Positions 10,037 to 29,113 of a DNA stretch of 64,000 nt are shown here, piece after piece. Source of the stretch: Idiomarina rhizosphaerae (GTDB lineage: Bacteria; Pseudomonadota; Gammaproteobacteria; Enterobacterales; Alteromonadaceae); the NCBI RefSeq assembly GCF_024159085.1, contig NZ_JAMZDE010000005.1, positions 62,001-126,000 of the forward strand, written 5' to 3'. The notes under the pieces are model-generated. The model ran no database searches and had not been told where the DNA came from. It was given only the letters and a program-made list of their open reading frames with translations. Positions within the stretch are counted from its first letter, which is position 1, and every line of letters starts with the position of its first letter. The position numbers and the translations under genes were made by a program.

Positions 10037-11239
10037 CTATTTCAGTACCGCTCTATTACGCCCAGCCTTTTTCGCAGAATAAAGGTTCTCATCTGCACGT
10101 TTCAAAATGCTATCCGCAGTATCATCAGGTTCCTTTAAAGTCGCACCTAAACTGATAGTGACTTTGACCGTTTTACTCTGCTCTTTTTTACCCCGCGCTT
10201 CTTTGCCTTTTGTCTTACTCTCCGGCCGCGAAGGCTCTCTCAATTTAAGCGGATAATTAGCGACCTTGCTACGAACGCTTTCCAGCGAACTTTTTAGCTT
10301 TTCTTCATCGTTGTGGAAAAACACTAAGGTAAATTCCTCACCGCCATAGCGGTAGGCCTTAAACCCGCCATGATCTTTTAAAATACTGCCTAACAGCCGC
10401 AACACCTGATCACCAACCTCGTGTCCATAGCGGTCATTAAATTTTTTAAAATGATCAACGTCGAGCATGCAAACGGCACTGCGTTTGCGTAAGTGTTGCA
10501 ACTGACTCATTAACGCGCGCCGTTGCGGCAGCCCCGTTAGTTCATCAATGTAGGCCAGCTTCAACATTTGGTCGGCCAGCGCCAGCAATAAGCCAGCGCT
10601 GGCTGCCAAAGCTGCCCAGGTAGAGGCTTGCTGATACTGTACAGCCAACAAAAAGACCATAAGAGAAAGCCAGGCCGCCCAATGACTCCAGGCAAAAGCG
10701 GAAGCGCTTTTATAAAGCAAATAAGTTGCCCAGACGCCGCCCATGGCGACTGTCCAAATGAGCAGCCCAATAGCAAACGAACTTTGTTGCCAGTCAGGTA
10801 AAGTCAAAACCTCCGCGGGGTTCAATAAAGCGAGAACCTGGGCAACTGGCGGCAGCAATAGCGATAAAGGCAGTATTACCAAAGCAACAAATATCAGTAT
10901 GCCTTTTCCGGTTAGTAGTACTGGCTTTTTCAGGAGGGTCAGGAGCAAGGCACTAAGCGATAACCACACAGGAAGTGCATCGTACAGCTGGGAAACCTCT
11001 TTCTGCGCCAGCGGTTGCTGTAAACCGAGCTGAATCGTAGCGTAGATACCACCAACCCATGCGCACCAATAAAACCATTGCCATTGCCGAAAGAAAGCGG
11101 CAACCAAAAACACCGTCCCTAACGCGGCTGAGACAGTTCCGGGAACTGAAAGCGAGACAGACATAAGCCACTCAGGAAAAAACCAAACCATAAGAGCCCA
11201 GATAATTGCCGGTAACGCTGCAAAAAAGGTCAAGTTCAA
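10037..11239 (-). CDS. Membrane diguanylate cyclase (GGDEF)
   Basis: 400 residues. The first about 225 residues form seven or eight hydrophobic helices of a membrane sensor that I cannot name; the C-terminal domain is a GGDEF domain with an active-site GGEEF at residues 299-303, so it should make cyclic di-GMP. No RxxD inhibitory site is seen at the usual place before it. A lysine/arginine-rich insert near residues 330-350 is unusual. The start codon is TTG at 11239, overlapping the TGA stop of the yaiI gene as TTGA, with GCAGGGAG before it, so the two are coupled. Confidence 0.9.
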
Positions 11240-22313: not shown

Positions 22314-22332
22314 GATGACAAAGGAGGGTTTT

Positions 22333-22809
22333 ATGAAACAGTTAAGCGTTATTGGTCTAGATCAGAAAAAGGCAGAAAAACTTGGCGACAAGCTAAATGA
22401 GCTGCTCTCAAACTACCAAGTTTTTTACATGAATGTTCGTGGTTTCCATTGGAATATTAAAGGCGAACGTTTTTTCGAATTGCACGCTAAGTTTGAAGAA
22501 ACCTACGATGACTTACTGCTGAAAATTGATGAAATTGCAGAGCGTATTCTAACTCTGGGTCAACGTCCTCAGCATGCTTACTCGACTTACATCAAGAACA
22601 GCGAAATTGAAGAAGTTAAAGACGTTCACGATGGTCGTGCCTGTGTCGCCAATATTTTGGACAGCTATCAGACGACCATCCGTCTACAGCGTGAAATTCT
22701 CGAAATTTCTGACGAAGCTGGAGATGAAGGTACCAATGCACTGATGAGCGACTACATTAAAGAGCAAGAAAAAACGGCGTGGATGCTGACCTCTTATTTA
22801 GGTAACTAA
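22333..22809 (+). CDS. dps: Dps family ferritin-like DNA-protection protein
   Basis: 158 residues from the ATG at 22333, which has a perfect AAGGAGG site; an upstream in-frame ATG at 22315 would contain that site and is rejected. Ferroxidase-type residues of Dps are visible in GFHWNIKG (His) and HAKFEETYDDL. Dps forms a 12-subunit shell that oxidises and stores iron and protects DNA under peroxide or starvation stress. Followed by a clear intrinsic terminator. Confidence 0.93.
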   Translation: MKQLSVIGLDQKKAEKLGDKLNELLSNYQVFYMNVRGFHWNIKGERFFELHAKFEETYDDLLLKIDEIAERILTLGQRPQHAYSTYIKNSEIEEVKDVHDGRACVANILDSYQTTIRLQREILEISDEAGDEGTNALMSDYIKEQEKTAWMLTSYLGN

Positions 22810-22851
22810 TGACTGATTCATTTGGTCAAAAACGTTAAGAGAGACGGGAGA

Positions 22852-22885
22852 GACCGGGTGGTTTTACACACTCGGTCTTTTTTTG
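22852..22885 (+). terminator. Intrinsic terminator of dps
   Basis: GACCGGGTG / CACTCGGTC stem (22852-22860 and 22869-22877, one G-U pair), 8-base loop, then seven T residues. Confidence 0.9.
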
Positions 22886-22978
22886 TCTAGAAAAAGCTTA
22901 CTGCTTGTTTCCTAAACAGAGTTTTTCTTGCCCCAAAAGCCTAAGCTACTTATGCTTGAAATAAGCTAGGAGGCGTAT

Positions 22979-23374
22979 ATGGGTAAGTTTCGGATTTTAA
23001 TTGTTGAAGACGATACCGTTTTACGTGAACTATTGGAGTTTTTATTACAGCGGGAAGGTTATGAAACTCAATGCTGTAATGACGGCTCCGCAGCTCAAGA
23101 ATGGTTACAGACATATACTCCCGACTTGGTGCTGCTGGACTTGCAGTTACCCATAGTATCAGGGGCACAATTGATTCAATGGCTTCGCGATCGAGAGTCC
23201 AGCTACCAGCTACCCATCTTGGTATTAACCAGCCTGCAAGAGGACGATGATATTGCCAATGCTTTGGATTCGGGAGCCAACGATTACATGGTTAAGCCTT
23301 TTCAACCAAAAGAATTGCAGGCCCGGATCCGTAAACTGCTTAATATCCGAAGTCAGAAAAGGAATTTCTCATGA
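22979..23374 (+). CDS. Stand-alone response regulator receiver protein
   Basis: 131 residues, only a CheY-like receiver domain. Acidic pocket E10/D11/D12, phosphorylation site D54 in LLDLQLP, T84-S85 switch residue and K106 in DYMVKPF are all in place; the NDYMVKPFQPKEL ending is OmpR-like but no DNA-binding domain follows. The start has TAGGAGG. The stop overlaps the YaiO gene by ATGA. As first gene of the operon it may switch the downstream synthase by protein contact; no histidine kinase is in the window near it. Confidence 0.92.
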   Translation: MGKFRILIVEDDTVLRELLEFLLQREGYETQCCNDGSAAQEWLQTYTPDLVLLDLQLPIVSGAQLIQWLRDRESSYQLPILVLTSLQEDDDIANALDSGANDYMVKPFQPKELQARIRKLLNIRSQKRNFS

Positions 23375-24123
23375 AGCGCAGTATGATTACCGGATTGAGC
23401 CTCCTGTTAAGTACAGCCCTGCCAGCCCAGCCTTATGATGAGGCACTGGAAGCAGGTTTTGGTTTCGATAGTCTGTCCGGAAATTATGACAATTGGCAAA
23501 ATGCTTACGTTCAGTACGAACAATCTCTATCGAACAAAACGCTAGGCTATTTACGTTTTAACCAAACTCGCCGCTTTGACCTTAGTGATAATGAACTTTT
23601 GGCCGGTTTTTATACCGACCTTAATGAAAACTGGCAATTATTCGGAGAGCTTGGTGGTTCAGGAACCTCCCGTGTACGTCCTGAACTGCAGGGGCAGATC
23701 ATACTGAGTCGGGCACTTAGCAACGGCTACCTAATTAGCGCAGGTACTCACAGAAGCCATTGGCCAACAAGCACCAGCCAGGGCTATAGCCTCCAGTTAG
23801 AACGCTATTTTGCTCAATGGCGGTGGTCTTACCGAATTCGTCAGGATCACCTTTTAGGCGGTGATTCAGCACTGTCTCATGCCGCAACCCTTAGCTATTT
23901 TTATGATGAATGGAGCACCGTAACGCTGGCGCTCAACCAAGGTGAGGAAGCAGAAAAAGTTGCCCCTCAGCGGGTTTTAATAACCGATGTCAAAGGTATC
24001 AGCGTTTACGGCTTACATCAGCTATCAACTGCCTGGGGACTTCGCTGGGCACTAAGCTTTAATCAGCAAGGTGATTTTTATGACCGCAGGGGGGTATTGC
24101 TTGGACTTCGCTATCGATTCTGA
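23371..24123 (+). CDS. YaiO-type outer-membrane beta-barrel protein
   Basis: 250 residues with a signal peptide (cleavage probably after LPA near residue 19). The rest alternates short amphipathic strands and turns and ends in YRF, an outer-membrane barrel signature; the pattern fits the YaiO family. In E. coli yaiO lies beside a GT2 glycosyltransferase gene (yaiP) and a deacetylase gene (yaiS). Here it lies beside a GT2 synthase and may be the export pore. Overlaps its neighbours at both ends. Confidence 0.8.
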   Translation: MKRSMITGLSLLLSTALPAQPYDEALEAGFGFDSLSGNYDNWQNAYVQYEQSLSNKTLGYLRFNQTRRFDLSDNELLAGFYTDLNENWQLFGELGGSGTSRVRPELQGQIILSRALSNGYLISAGTHRSHWPTSTSQGYSLQLERYFAQWRWSYRIRQDHLLGGDSALSHAATLSYFYDEWSTVTLALNQGEEAEKVAPQRVLITDVKGISVYGLHQLSTAWGLRWALSFNQQGDFYDRRGVLLGLRYRF

Positions 24124-25195
24124 GCAGCTCCTTCAATGGATGCACACGGCTCTCCTTGTTATTGCCGTTTTGATCCTATTGGTATGGTCATGGCTGTTCA
24201 TCTTGCGGATTATTCATCAGGGGCATGACAAAAAACGAAAGGCATTACAACATCATTGGCGCCAATTTCTATTCGAGTTTTGTGCAAACCCTCAAGCAGA
24301 ATTACCCGATCAATCCCAAATAAAACAGCTCTGGCGAGATACTCAGGCTTTTCTATGGTTTATACAGTTGTGGTCATTAATGCATCGTTACGTTCGCGGC
24401 GATGCTGACGATGGTCTTGAGCGTTTAGCTCACCATATTCGCTTAGAGCGTCAGGCACTTGAGTTGATGCGCGGTCAGGACGTGAGAACCTTGATAGCAA
24501 CCGCTATCGCCATGGGCGATTTACAAAAACTTTCTCCTGCAACAATAAAACGTTTAAAAGAGCTCACCCGACACTCCAGCAGTATGGTTGTTCTTACCGC
24601 GCTACGTGCTTTAATGCGAAATGATCAAACAGTAGCAGTCCCAATACTACTTGAATTGAAGAACTTCGTTGCTTCAGAACGTTTAGTCACTATAGCTAAA
24701 GAATGCGACTCGCGTTATCTGATTCAACAAGCTCAGCAAACTTTACTTCAGACCACACCTGAACATGCCGTTTACCTGCTTAAGGTGTTGCAGGGGGTCG
24801 ATGTACCCTTGTCAGCCAGCGAAGCCAAACAATTGGTCAATCACTTTAAATCACAACCCGAAGCTATCGCGCAACTAATACCACTGTTGGATCACCCACA
24901 CCATCTGCCTCTCGTTCGACGCTTGACGCATTCCGCTGAACTTGGAGTCAGGGTTCAGGCTACCCGAATGCTAGGAGAACTGGCACGCAACAAACAAGAT
25001 TTAGAACGTTTGTGGCAACTGCTTCAAGATTCCGCATGGTGGGTTCGTTATCGCGCCGCTCAAGGCGTTTTCTTGCACCCGGAGTTTTCACCAACCTATC
25101 TTAAAGAACAACTGACCGAACTGGCCGACCCATTTGCCAGAAACATGTTGATGCAAGTGGCGAATGAAATGAATTTGGAGATAACTGATGCTTGA
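24080..25195 (+). CDS. Membrane-anchored HEAT-repeat protein
   Basis: 371 residues from the ATG at 24080, which has AAGGTG just upstream; GTG at 24071 is also possible. A single transmembrane helix lies near residues 20-42, followed by a basic segment and then, from about residue 120 to the end, repeated helical pairs with HEAT character (for example SSMVVLTALRALMRN and LGVRVQATRMLGELARN and WWVRYRAAQGVF). It probably works as a cytoplasmic scaffold linking the receiver protein to the synthase (inference). Overlaps the YaiO gene by 44 bases and the GT2 gene by 8. Confidence 0.8.
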   Translation: MTAGGYCLDFAIDSEQLLQWMHTALLVIAVLILLVWSWLFILRIIHQGHDKKRKALQHHWRQFLFEFCANPQAELPDQSQIKQLWRDTQAFLWFIQLWSLMHRYVRGDADDGLERLAHHIRLERQALELMRGQDVRTLIATAIAMGDLQKLSPATIKRLKELTRHSSSMVVLTALRALMRNDQTVAVPILLELKNFVASERLVTIAKECDSRYLIQQAQQTLLQTTPEHAVYLLKVLQGVDVPLSASEAKQLVNHFKSQPEAIAQLIPLLDHPHHLPLVRRLTHSAELGVRVQATRMLGELARNKQDLERLWQLLQDSAWWVRYRAAQGVFLHPEFSPTYLKEQLTELADPFARNMLMQVANEMNLEITDA

Positions 25196-26597
25196 TAAGT
25201 GGCAACCATGGATTGAAATTACACAACTGAGTTTTATTGGTTATTTCGTCGCGTTAACCGCAGTTTATCTTGTACTCAACATCATCAGTTTTGTTGTTAT
25301 TCGACAGTACATGCGCCGTTACGATAACCAGCTACTACCGATGAGTTTCGGTCCTCTGCTACCGCCAGTCTCAGTCATCGTTCCTGCATATAATGAAGCA
25401 ATTGGGATTGTTTCATCGATTAAAAGCATCCTGCAACTAGAATATCCGAAATATGAAATCATCGTCATTAACGATGGTTCAAGCGATGAGACTATGACAA
25501 AACTTATCGAAGCATTTGACCTACAAATTTATCATGAGGCCTACCGAAATCAGTTGGCCACTCAGCCAATCCGACAAGTATACCGGTCAAAAAAATACCC
25601 ACAGCTTAGAGCTATTAATAAAGACAATGGCGGAAAGGCCGACGCCCTCAATGCAGGGATAAATGCATCGCGTAATCCCTTGTTTTGTGCGGTTGATGCC
25701 GACTCAATTTTGCAACGCGATAGTTTAGACAAAATTGTCCACCCTTTTATCGACGAACCAGAAACGATTGCCGTTGGAGGTTCCATTCGAGTCGCTAATG
25801 GTTCAACGATTCGCCAAGGGCTATTAACCAAAGTGAGCCTGCCGAAATCCTGGCTAGCCCGGCTACAGATTGTCGAGTATTTACGAGCCTTTTTATTCGG
25901 TAGAATGGGCTGGTCACCACTTAACGGGATGCTTATTATCTCGGGCGCATTTGGCGTGTTCCGTAAGCAGCGAGTTATTGAATGCGGCGGATATCAAGCC
26001 AATACTGTGGGCGAAGATATGGAACTGGTTATTAGACTTCACCAGCACATGAATAAAGCGAAACTTCCTTACCGTATCGCCTTCATACCCGATCCCGTAT
26101 GCTGGACCGAGGCGCCCGAAGATTTAAATACGTTAAAGAATCAACGCATTCGGTGGCAGCGCGGTTTAATGGAGAGCTTAACAACCAATATTGGTCTTCT
26201 GCTTTCACCAAGAGGCAAAGCTGCCGGCTGGATAGCTTACCCTTTTATGCTCTTGTTCGAGGGGATTGGCCCAATCATTGAGGTATTGGCTTACCTACTC
26301 ACCGCTTATTTCTTTTTCGCCGGTTTGGTCGATCTAGACTTTACTCTGGCTTTTTTGCTTGCCGCTTTTGGTTTAGGAGTTTTTATTTCCATATTTTCCC
26401 TTATTTTAGAAGAGTTGACCTTCAGAACCTACCAATCAAAAAAAGAACTCATGTGGCTTATTTTCACCGCAGTACTGGAAAACTTCGGTTATCGACAATT
26501 AAACAGTTGGTGGCGGTTACGCGGATTATTCCAATTTGTCCGAGGCCGCAGACATAATTGGGGAGCAATGAAACGAGTTGGCCGGCTAGGGCAGTAA
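25188..26597 (+). CDS. Processive-type family 2 glycosyltransferase, membrane bound
   Basis: 469 residues. N-terminal transmembrane helix (about 12-35), GT2 domain with the four synthase landmarks: D96 in NDGSSD, D170-A-D172, E276-D277 and QRIRW at 319-323, and several C-terminal membrane helices from about 345. This is the architecture of PgaC, hyaluronan synthase and related enzymes that polymerise and extrude a polysaccharide. The sugar cannot be told from sequence. Last gene of the receiver-YaiO-HEAT-GT2 operon and followed by a terminator. No deacetylase, PilZ or BcsB partner is nearby. Confidence 0.9.
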   Translation: MLDKWQPWIEITQLSFIGYFVALTAVYLVLNIISFVVIRQYMRRYDNQLLPMSFGPLLPPVSVIVPAYNEAIGIVSSIKSILQLEYPKYEIIVINDGSSDETMTKLIEAFDLQIYHEAYRNQLATQPIRQVYRSKKYPQLRAINKDNGGKADALNAGINASRNPLFCAVDADSILQRDSLDKIVHPFIDEPETIAVGGSIRVANGSTIRQGLLTKVSLPKSWLARLQIVEYLRAFLFGRMGWSPLNGMLIISGAFGVFRKQRVIECGGYQANTVGEDMELVIRLHQHMNKAKLPYRIAFIPDPVCWTEAPEDLNTLKNQRIRWQRGLMESLTTNIGLLLSPRGKAAGWIAYPFMLLFEGIGPIIEVLAYLLTAYFFFAGLVDLDFTLAFLLAAFGLGVFISIFSLILEELTFRTYQSKKELMWLIFTAVLENFGYRQLNSWWRLRGLFQFVRGRRHNWGAMKRVGRLGQ

Positions 26598-26604
26598 ATA
26601 CCAC

Positions 26605-26635
26605 ATAAAAAAGCCCCTTAGAAGGGGCGTTTTTA
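26605..26635. terminator. Bidirectional intrinsic terminator
   Basis: GCCCCTT / AAGGGGC hairpin (26613-26628) flanked by A residues on the left and T residues on the right. It can end the glycosyltransferase operon and the convergent TonB receptor gene. Confidence 0.85.
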
Positions 26636-26656
26636 TACGGCGAGTTAATACAACGC

Positions 26657-29113
26657 CTAGAAGGTATAGTTCAGCCGAGCGTAGTAGTACCCCCCATTAA
26701 TGCCAAACGGGAAGGTTTCCCAGCCATATTTAAAGCCCGCATCAGAAAATGGCGAACCTGCACTGCCCCATTCGTCCGGATAAGTATCAAACAGGTTATT
26801 CGCACCAATACGAACGTTTAAACTGTCAGTAAAGTCGTAGCCGATAGAAAGATCAGTCAGCCACTTACCACCCCACTCATGACGCACACCGGTAAAGGCT
26901 TGCCCTTCAACAGGCCCAAAATAATTAAAGGCTAAATTCACATTCCAGGCATCACGAGTCCAGTCACCACTTAACGTTGCTTTCTCACTGGGTTGTCCCT
27001 CTTCAAGACGCAGGACTTGAGTGTCGTTGAAGATCTGTTCACCCGGAATTAATGAAGAGACCGAATTCACCTGCTCTACATCGGTATTCATAAAGCTCAT
27101 TGCGGCAGTTAAATTTAAATTGCCATCCATAAATTCAGTCGGGTAAGAGGCAATCACATCCAGACCTGTGGTTTTGGTATCAACAGAGTTAGTGAAGAAT
27201 TGCGCTGCCCCCAGATTATTGTCTGCCAAAATTTGACCAAACTCTGCGCCTACATCAGCTGTCAGTGACTCCGACAAAACAATGCGATCATCAATATTGA
27301 TTTGATAAAAATCCATGGTCAGATCGAAACCGTTGTTGAAACGCTTTATAAGACCCAGGCTTATGCTTTCAGACGTTTCTTCTTCCAGCTCGTTAATACC
27401 AAATTGACGTGCCACTTCGTCATCATTGGCAATGGTTCCGGTTTCAACCAACGTGCCATTAACGATGTTAGTTGATACCTGGCTGTAATAAATTTGCTGC
27501 ACGCCTGGAGCCCGGAATCCGGTCGATACTGTGCCACGCACAGAGAGGTCACTGTTGATATCATATCGGGCAGACAGTTTACCGGAAATATTATCACCGG
27601 CGATGTCATAATCTTCGTAGCGTAAAGCCCCGGCTAACAAGAAGTCCGGCGTTACATAGTATTCTGCATCGACATAAGCCCCATAACTGTCACGGTCAGC
27701 GTCTACCGCCTGGCTCGGACTAAAACCCGGGAAACCTTGTATGCCGGCTTCTGCGGGGTCGCCAGATGGGGTTAGGATTTCAATGCTGGGATCATTGGCT
27801 CTGCCATAGGACCAGGATACCGGGTCACCGGGGTTAATTTGATAGCCGTCACGGCGCATCTCTAACCCCACCGCCAGATAAAGCAGCTCATTTGCGATAT
27901 CAACCGTACCATTAAAATCTAAATTGAATGTCGTCTGCTCAAAGACCAGTTCACCATCAAAAGCTTCTGTTGGCGTTTCGCCATAAATACCGCCGTCCGG
28001 GCTCGGTTCGTAGTACCAACTTACATTTGCTGAGTTGGACGAATTAAAGCCAAATTCATTTTTCCCGTAAACCACACTGGCATCCCACAGCCAGGCGTTA
28101 GGCAGATCTCCGCGAATGCCAACAGCCAACGATTGATCATCCGCTTCGGTCTCTAGTTTCGGCAGAAAACCATCGGGGTAAATGGCTTCTATGGTTCTCG
28201 GGTGTCCGCGTCCGCGGAAAAAACCTGAAGAACCACCGTCACGGCTGGAGATACCACCAAAAGCATAAAGCTCTGTCGTTGCACTAAAGTTATAACCGGA
28301 GTTAAACCAGGCGTATAAGTTCTCCGAATCGGCATCACCAATATGCAGACGAACCACAGGGTCACCGCTGGGCGATGACCAGTCCCCTATGAGCGATGCT
28401 TCAGCTGGAGACGCCCGGTTCGTCATTCCCCGGTCACGGTACTCCAGAGTGCCGTTGAAAAAGCCGTTGTCTGACTCAACACCAAAATTAACGCCAATAG
28501 TATTAACTTCGCCATCACCCTCATAAGTTTGACCTATTTCAGCGGAGACACTGCCGCCTTCGGAGCTTTTCAGCGTGATATTAATGACCCCGGCAATAGC
28601 ATCAGAACCGTATTGAGCCGCCGCACCGTCTCGCAGAATTTCGACACGCGCAACAGCGGTAATTGGAATGGCGTTAATGTCATAACCTGCCGAGCCTTTA
28701 CCAATGGTCTCCTGAACGTTCACCAGAGCTTGTTGATGCCTGCGTTTACCGTTAACCAGAACCAGAACCTGATCCGGATTGAGCCCGCGCAGTGTCGCCG
28801 GGCGAATGATGTCAGAACCGTCAGAAATGGTTGTGCTGGAAAAGTTAAAAGAAGGCGCACTCATTTGCAGAGCTTTACCGAGTTCGGTCGCTCCTGTATT
28901 TACGAGTTGCTCTGCGGAAATAATATCAATTGGCGAAGCCGACTCTGTCGCCGTTCTGCCATTGACCCGTGAACCCAAGGTGACAATGCGCTCCATAGAT
29001 TCATCAGACTCTGCATTAGCATCTGCTTGTTGCGCAAAACCGGTACCCGGGATTGCTAACGCTGCTGACATTGAAATGGCCAAATACCCAAGTTTAAAAG
29101 ATGCTCTGCTCAT
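26657..29113 (-). CDS. TonB-dependent outer-membrane receptor, substrate unknown
   Basis: 818 residues. Signal peptide ending FAQ near residue 28, a TonB-box-like stretch (MERIVTLGSR), the plug domain at about 55-175 (LRGLNPDQVLVLVNGKRRH, RVEILRDGAAAQYGSDAIAGVINI) and a 22-strand-type barrel ending in aromatic F. The plug wording is typical of the large Alteromonadales/sphingomonad receptor group for sugars, peptides or other organic substrates. No linked transporter or enzyme gives the ligand, and no Fur-box was found. The 179-base upstream region is AT-rich without a regulatory site I can name. Confidence 0.93.
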   Translation of the reverse strand: MSRASFKLGYLAISMSAALAIPGTGFAQQADANAESDESMERIVTLGSRVNGRTATESASPIDIISAEQLVNTGATELGKALQMSAPSFNFSSTTISDGSDIIRPATLRGLNPDQVLVLVNGKRRHQQALVNVQETIGKGSAGYDINAIPITAVARVEILRDGAAAQYGSDAIAGVINITLKSSEGGSVSAEIGQTYEGDGEVNTIGVNFGVESDNGFFNGTLEYRDRGMTNRASPAEASLIGDWSSPSGDPVVRLHIGDADSENLYAWFNSGYNFSATTELYAFGGISSRDGGSSGFFRGRGHPRTIEAIYPDGFLPKLETEADDQSLAVGIRGDLPNAWLWDASVVYGKNEFGFNSSNSANVSWYYEPSPDGGIYGETPTEAFDGELVFEQTTFNLDFNGTVDIANELLYLAVGLEMRRDGYQINPGDPVSWSYGRANDPSIEILTPSGDPAEAGIQGFPGFSPSQAVDADRDSYGAYVDAEYYVTPDFLLAGALRYEDYDIAGDNISGKLSARYDINSDLSVRGTVSTGFRAPGVQQIYYSQVSTNIVNGTLVETGTIANDDEVARQFGINELEEETSESISLGLIKRFNNGFDLTMDFYQINIDDRIVLSESLTADVGAEFGQILADNNLGAAQFFTNSVDTKTTGLDVIASYPTEFMDGNLNLTAAMSFMNTDVEQVNSVSSLIPGEQIFNDTQVLRLEEGQPSEKATLSGDWTRDAWNVNLAFNYFGPVEGQAFTGVRHEWGGKWLTDLSIGYDFTDSLNVRIGANNLFDTYPDEWGSAGSPFSDAGFKYGWETFPFGINGGYYYARLNYTF

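Follow-up and report, generated by a model that had tools for sequence, protein, structure and literature searches.

A HEAT-repeat protein paired with a family 2 glycosyltransferase as the core of a putative exopolysaccharide operon in Idiomarina rhizosphaerae

In a stretch of 64,000 nucleotides from Idiomarina rhizosphaerae (hereafter the window; contig C5, positions 62001-126000 of genome G000, 2.87 Mb), four genes at 22979-26597 encode a lone response-regulator receiver, a YaiO-family outer-membrane barrel, a membrane-anchored HEAT-repeat protein and a family 2 glycosyltransferase (GT2). The constant core of this arrangement is the pair of HEAT protein and GT2, which is distinct and widespread; we found it in Pseudomonadota, Bacteroidota, Deinococcota, Bacillota and Halobacteria. 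Based on sequence comparison and structure prediction, we think it probable that the four genes form a synthase-dependent exopolysaccharide operon around this core, in which the phosphorylated receiver would act on the HEAT protein and YaiO would export the product. The four genes are:

22979..23374, forward strand: lone receiver of 131 amino acids (aa); Response_reg PF00072, 105.9 bits, residues 6-118; phospho-acceptor Asp54
23371..24123, forward strand: YaiO-family outer-membrane barrel of 250 aa; TIGR04390, 113.8 bits against a cut-off of 32; 14 strands modelled
24071..25195, forward strand: HEAT-repeat protein with a predicted N-terminal membrane helix; HEAT_2, 49.9 bits against a cut-off of 27.7; hydropathy, Lys/Arg bias and structure model
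25188..26597, forward strand: GT2 of the HEAT-associated clade, 469 aa; Glyco_tranf_2_3, 83.7 bits; processive-type motifs; N- and C-terminal membrane segments by hydropathy

The open reading frame (ORF) list, Pfam and TIGR04390 bear out this tight order, which a preliminary description had read from the letters alone. That description had also named beforehand what would speak against it, namely that the families do not occur together in other genomes. They do travel together. Loci already collected served as the training set for our HEAT, YaiO and receiver models, which makes the models' scores at these loci circular; in 30 loci outside the training set (Paenibacillus, 25 Pseudomonadota genomes and four IMG/VR contigs), the nearest same-strand upstream ORF of at least 150 aa matched HEAT_2 in 28 (Pfam and position). 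The same is true of the window, where the HEAT gene lies directly upstream of the GT2, the arrangement by which we define the module. In the two misses, HEAT and YaiO lie alongside on the opposite strand (L100) or only a 91-aa HEAT piece is present (L103), with both ORFs above the Pfam cut-off. By contrast, none of 14 control loci, taken from 17 lower-scoring GT2 rows, had a match to our own HEAT model. Seven of the 13 control genomes contain HEAT_2 matches (15 in all), none of them within the 14 control loci, which strengthens the control, and a Pfam scan of 77 control ORFs gave no HEAT among the 25 of 66 families listed. Since the neighbourhood is conserved across loci, a chance grouping of the four genes is excluded.

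Plasmids carry the pair as well: among 12 of the 15 plasmid records, nine have an annotated HEAT neighbour. At the other plasmid loci, the Paenibacillus neighbour is a HEAT protein by Pfam, the Emticicia neighbour scores below the HEAT_2 cut-off (25.0 vs 27.7), and the Prevotella locus has no HEAT neighbour, its GT2 being distant (28% identity) and part of a much longer protein. The neighbours of the Stenotrophomonas GT2 and of three haloarchaeal GT2s are above the HEAT_2 cut-off. Loci outside Pseudomonadota were sampled by the chance contents of the collections.

A GT2 family profile built from 12 relatives found the family in 17 of 369 Gammaproteobacteria genomes (E-values up to 1e-80) and in 13 of 299 genomes of a phylum-wide sample (at least 314 bits; the next score was 217 bits), with genome G000 included in both counts. 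With the family model, 45 family loci score at least 315 bits, the lowest being L092 on a long branch, against 137.5 bits for E. coli PgaC and 67 for YaiP. A maximum-likelihood tree with 60 rows separates the 44 family GT2 rows from the rest by a branch supported at 100/98; both PgaC and YaiP fall outside, on long branches. On this tree, the window GT2 belongs to a separate, HEAT-associated clade. The Devosia locus (L068) has frameshifts and was omitted from the tree, and L081, which is the same place as L001, was omitted from the counts.

The landmarks of a processive enzyme listed in the preliminary description, D96, D170xD172, E276D277 and QRIRW (Q319, R320, R322 and W323), are all present and invariant in an alignment of 12 rows that spans bacterial and archaeal relatives, the other 11 of which are 34-54% identical to the window GT2. 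From these motifs and the family, we infer that the GT2 makes a polymer: it would polymerise a nucleotide sugar at the inner membrane and pass the chain through its own membrane part. A sequence search of solved structures returned synthases of chondroitin, cellulose and heparosan, matched along short stretches. GT2 enzymes are functionally mixed, and the Pfam matches here are generic; the enzyme could instead glycosylate a lipid, a protein or a short oligosaccharide, with YaiO and HEAT serving that path and no polymer made. We consider this improbable given the invariance of QRIRW and the other processive-type motifs, the top NCBIfam match (PgaC_IcaA) and the TPR-barrel proteins that adjoin the GT2 in relatives.

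That top match also brings up an ordinary PgaABCD operon for poly-N-acetylglucosamine (PNAG), or a cellulose operon, with diverged subunits. PgaC_IcaA is the best named model for the window GT2, and a GlmU-like nucleotidyltransferase and GlmS are encoded beside one of the three haloarchaeal loci, hinting at a UDP-GlcNAc substrate there. The match reaches 146.4 bits, however, far below the cut-off of 422.3, and the CelA model gives 66 bits against a cut-off of 699.1. PgaC itself scores well under every family locus and sits outside the clade, albeit on a long branch, and domain-model scans confined to the four operon proteins found no match to PgaB, PgaD or PilZ. A diverged PNAG or cellulose operon thus seems very improbable. 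A different sugar is hinted at by four receiver-less loci with a lower-scoring GT2 subgroup (L103-L106): a sugar epimerase-like gene lies nearby in all four and a UDP-sugar dehydrogenase-like gene in three, and their polymer perhaps contains a uronic sugar.

The likeness to these known systems is one of plan. PgaABCD/HmsHFRS/IcaADBC share with our loci a GT2 synthase, for which PgaC is the nearest named model, and the TPR-barrel export protein found in many relatives; here, however, a HEAT protein stands in the place of PgaD and a receiver is part of the operon. The Bcs cellulose synthase likewise has a membrane GT2 with QxxRW, and the TPR barrel of the relatives resembles that of BcsC, whereas the window operon has neither PilZ nor BcsB. 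The operon may work like Pga or Bcs, yet it qualifies as neither, and we have filed it as a new type among synthase-dependent polysaccharide systems.

The E. coli yaiO-yaiX-yaiP-yaiS cluster, described beforehand as different, does differ: though it too has a GT2, it has only the YaiO barrel family in common with the window operon, which holds no YaiP-kind GT2 beside its YaiO. No HEAT or receiver gene is annotated in the E. coli cluster, which instead has the deacetylase YaiS and an acyltransferase split by an insertion sequence; in the K-12 region (L121), the annotation shows yaiX, the gene between yaiO and yaiP, as interrupted by IS2. The xag and sfz stalk clusters are also GT2-based exopolysaccharide clusters. 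They were rejected as a name for the operon, as their gene set differs in the portions of the sources available to us: sfz encodes a protein like BcsB and a GT2 whose N-terminal domain is EpsE-like, and a HEAT repeat is unmentioned in those portions. A role in defence was also rejected; PADLOC matched the receiver three times, each time weakly, and YaiO, HEAT and GT2 not at all. In agreement with the preliminary description, which knew no named system with this gene set, we found no account of the operon or of such a system in the openly accessible full-text literature, a scope that leaves out most subscription papers. A yaiO mutant for which no phage gave a growth phenotype (PMC8594841, seen in extract) has no bearing on the operon, nor do the extracts of PMC12419801 and PMC6599016.

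The HEAT partners share an architecture. One strong N-terminal hydrophobic stretch is present in 41 of 44 HEAT proteins (by hydropathy), and Lys and Arg are richer after this stretch than before it in 39 of the 44. Under the positive-inside rule, this bias predicts a cytoplasmic solenoid in those 39, on the same side of the membrane as the receiver and the GT2 active site. The structure model of the window HEAT protein (predicted local distance difference test, pLDDT, 83) has a long helix at residues 17-72 followed by helical repeats to residue 366, and a fold search with it gave solenoids of a generic kind, importin alpha and designed repeats among them. We propose that the HEAT protein is a regular subunit of the GT2, with the membrane helix keeping it beside the synthase and the solenoid offering a docking surface. 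A loose W-W-V-R-like pattern in a C-terminal repeat (residue 323 of the window protein) occurs in 28 of the 44 partners; it is a possible docking mark, suggestive but not universal.

The window receiver is a lone receiver, with a receiver domain, a phospho-acceptor Asp and no output domain matched by Pfam. As it is without a DNA-binding part, it most likely acts by protein contact. A histidine kinase would phosphorylate it, and the phospho-receiver would bind the HEAT solenoid and thereby set the activity of the synthase. Receivers of this kind are present at 17 of the 25 Pseudomonadota loci, at all three haloarchaeal loci, and in Flavobacterium and Emticicia. With the operon-receiver model, 17 untrained operon receivers score 91-174 bits and the other receivers at the loci 87 or less; judging by these scores, the operon receiver is a specific and common partner. 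Of 27 operon receivers, 25 retain Asp54. Its place is taken by Glu in the L086 receiver and by Asn in the L066 receiver, and these two switches may be locked. Receiver-bearing rows occur on the GT2 tree in Bacteroidota, Halobacteria and proteobacterial branches, so the link to the receiver is either old or was made repeatedly.

All four genes occur in the window order at 15 of the 25 Pseudomonadota loci by model, or 16 counting the L096 TPR-barrel gene, while the three haloarchaeal loci keep receiver, HEAT and GT2, and two Bacillota loci HEAT and GT2. The four-gene set that had been presented as a unit therefore stands in part: HEAT and GT2 are constant, whereas the receiver is missing from some Pseudomonadota loci and YaiO turned up in outer-membrane bacteria only.

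BLAST grouping places relatives of histidine kinases near 13 of 43 loci, and the two examined are hybrid kinases, one with CHASE3, the other with MASE1, and both with PAS. At a Mesorhizobium locus, genes for an ATP-binding, kinase-like protein, two receivers, YaiO, HEAT and GT2 are consecutive, and opposite them is an Hpt gene. Such a locus would also suit a polysaccharide synthase operon whose receiver is only co-transcribed and serves kinases encoded elsewhere as a phosphate sink or relay. Lone receivers are often relays, and the Asn and Glu in the place of Asp54 are in keeping with this. However, the receiver kind is specific to the operon and has been kept beside HEAT-GT2 in all three parts of the tree, and we regard a relay as rather unlikely.

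At the other end of the proposed path, the window YaiO belongs to the TIGR04390 family. A YaiO gene is present at 23 of the 25 Pseudomonadota loci; 22 had been picked by our own model before the TIGR04390 scan and one (L096) by position, and all 23 match TIGR04390. Up to 15 of these 23 relatives have TPR repeats and hence the TPR-plus-barrel plan of PgaA and BcsC, and the Bacteroides YaiO barrel is part of a 988-aa TPR protein. The best AlphaFold2 model of the window YaiO has 14 strands and a pLDDT of 84.8 (the other four 60-72), and it resembles the porin OmpG, with a template modelling (TM) score of up to 0.70 by query length. The barrel would let the polymer through the outer membrane. The complete path from control to exit that had been suggested earlier nevertheless stays a guess, since the window YaiO is without a TPR part. 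At the three haloarchaeal loci and the two Bacillota loci, our own model found no YaiO; the gene turned up only in bacteria that have an outer membrane, and not in every one of them.

Other genes accompany the pair at some loci. A gene of sulfatase/lipoteichoic acid (LTA)-synthase type directly follows YaiO in Stenotrophomonas (L001:8784-11165) and Emticicia (L066:7637-9604), and its product is maybe a polymer modifier. Large proteins are encoded upstream of HEAT-GT2 in Paenibacillus (L062:767-3868), Planococcus (L069:1688-3757) and Deinococcus (L067:1424-3850); a domain weakly similar to glycoside hydrolase family 2 is common to all three, and YaiO was not found there. The Planococcus plasmid (L069) also has a CotH-kinase gene at 245-1663, two genes ahead of the HEAT gene, and, farther along, a QatC defence-type gene at 11019-11212.

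Several observations weigh against an operon in which a phospho-receiver acts on a HEAT-GT2 core and YaiO exports the polymer. The Flavobacterium neighbour of the GT2, alike in size and place, matched no Pfam family and the Emticicia neighbour is under the HEAT_2 cut-off, so that the Pfam check weakens the Bacteroidota part of the HEAT count. The 11 aligned HEAT partners are only 11-21% identical to the window HEAT protein; if HEAT and GT2 interact, the interaction was kept while the sequence drifted. The receiver was not found near 8 of the 25 Pseudomonadota loci or near the Stenotrophomonas, Deinococcus, Bacillota and Bacteroides loci, and it therefore cannot be essential. No HATPase_c domain occurs in the window, the nearest on the contig being about 87 kb past the window receiver. 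Finally, YaiO was not found at L092, L097 and L124 by model, nor in the Deinococcus TPR protein by Pfam.

In the window, the operon is packed between two genes named by eye, and together with them the features of the site are:

22315-22809: dps gene, upstream flank
22811..26651: accessory stretch that 14 of the 19 genus genomes lack; in these, the TonB-receptor gene comes straight after dps
26610..26640, forward strand: terminator-like GC stem and T run 3' of the GT2 gene, by eye
26657-29113: TonB-receptor gene, downstream flank, convergent

Receiver and YaiO genes overlap by 4 bp, HEAT and GT2 genes by 8 bp, and YaiO and HEAT genes by 23-53 bp, depending on which HEAT start is chosen (GTG 24071, ATG 24080 or TTG 24101). 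The listed GTG is probably too early, since two relatives from the same genus begin with ATG at MDFAID, which aligns with TTG 24101.

The HEAT gene and family GT2 occur together in 4 of the 19 genus genomes (G000, G003, G006 and G017), and the HEAT gene in none of 41 further sampled genomes of the family and order. Three of the 19 carry the operon at the window site, and G006 carries it elsewhere. Beside dps, G005 retains a remnant of the TonB-receptor gene and G006 has none of it. Between G000 and G017, the four genes have nonsynonymous divergence (dN) of 0.051-0.088 and synonymous divergence (dS) of 0.63-1.58, and are under purifying selection; the flanking dps has a dS of 1.41. On a tree of the flanking genes, at least two changes are required to explain the site pattern, with G016, close to G000, being empty. 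A plain horizontal gain at the site was therefore rejected. As operon and flank have diverged alike, repeated gain is not preferred either; an old presence followed by losses, or exchange by way of the flanks, accounts for the pattern equally well. The operon is an accessory trait.

Tentatively, these loci may represent a cross-domain synthase under direct two-component control, in which the phospho-receiver on the HEAT protein gates polymerisation in the place held by cyclic di-GMP in cellulose, PNAG and alginate synthesis, with the same core at work in haloarchaea, which have no outer membrane. If so, the operon would encode an exopolysaccharide synthase that can be switched post-translationally by phosphorylation, and the HEAT proteins would be a new class of synthase subunit. 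The three-gene archaeal form would make a small test system, free of the question of outer-membrane export. With the pair present across phyla and in Halobacteria, a single characterised example would help to read many surface-polymer loci; HEAT-GT2 looks like a widespread, little-studied way to make and control a surface sugar polymer.

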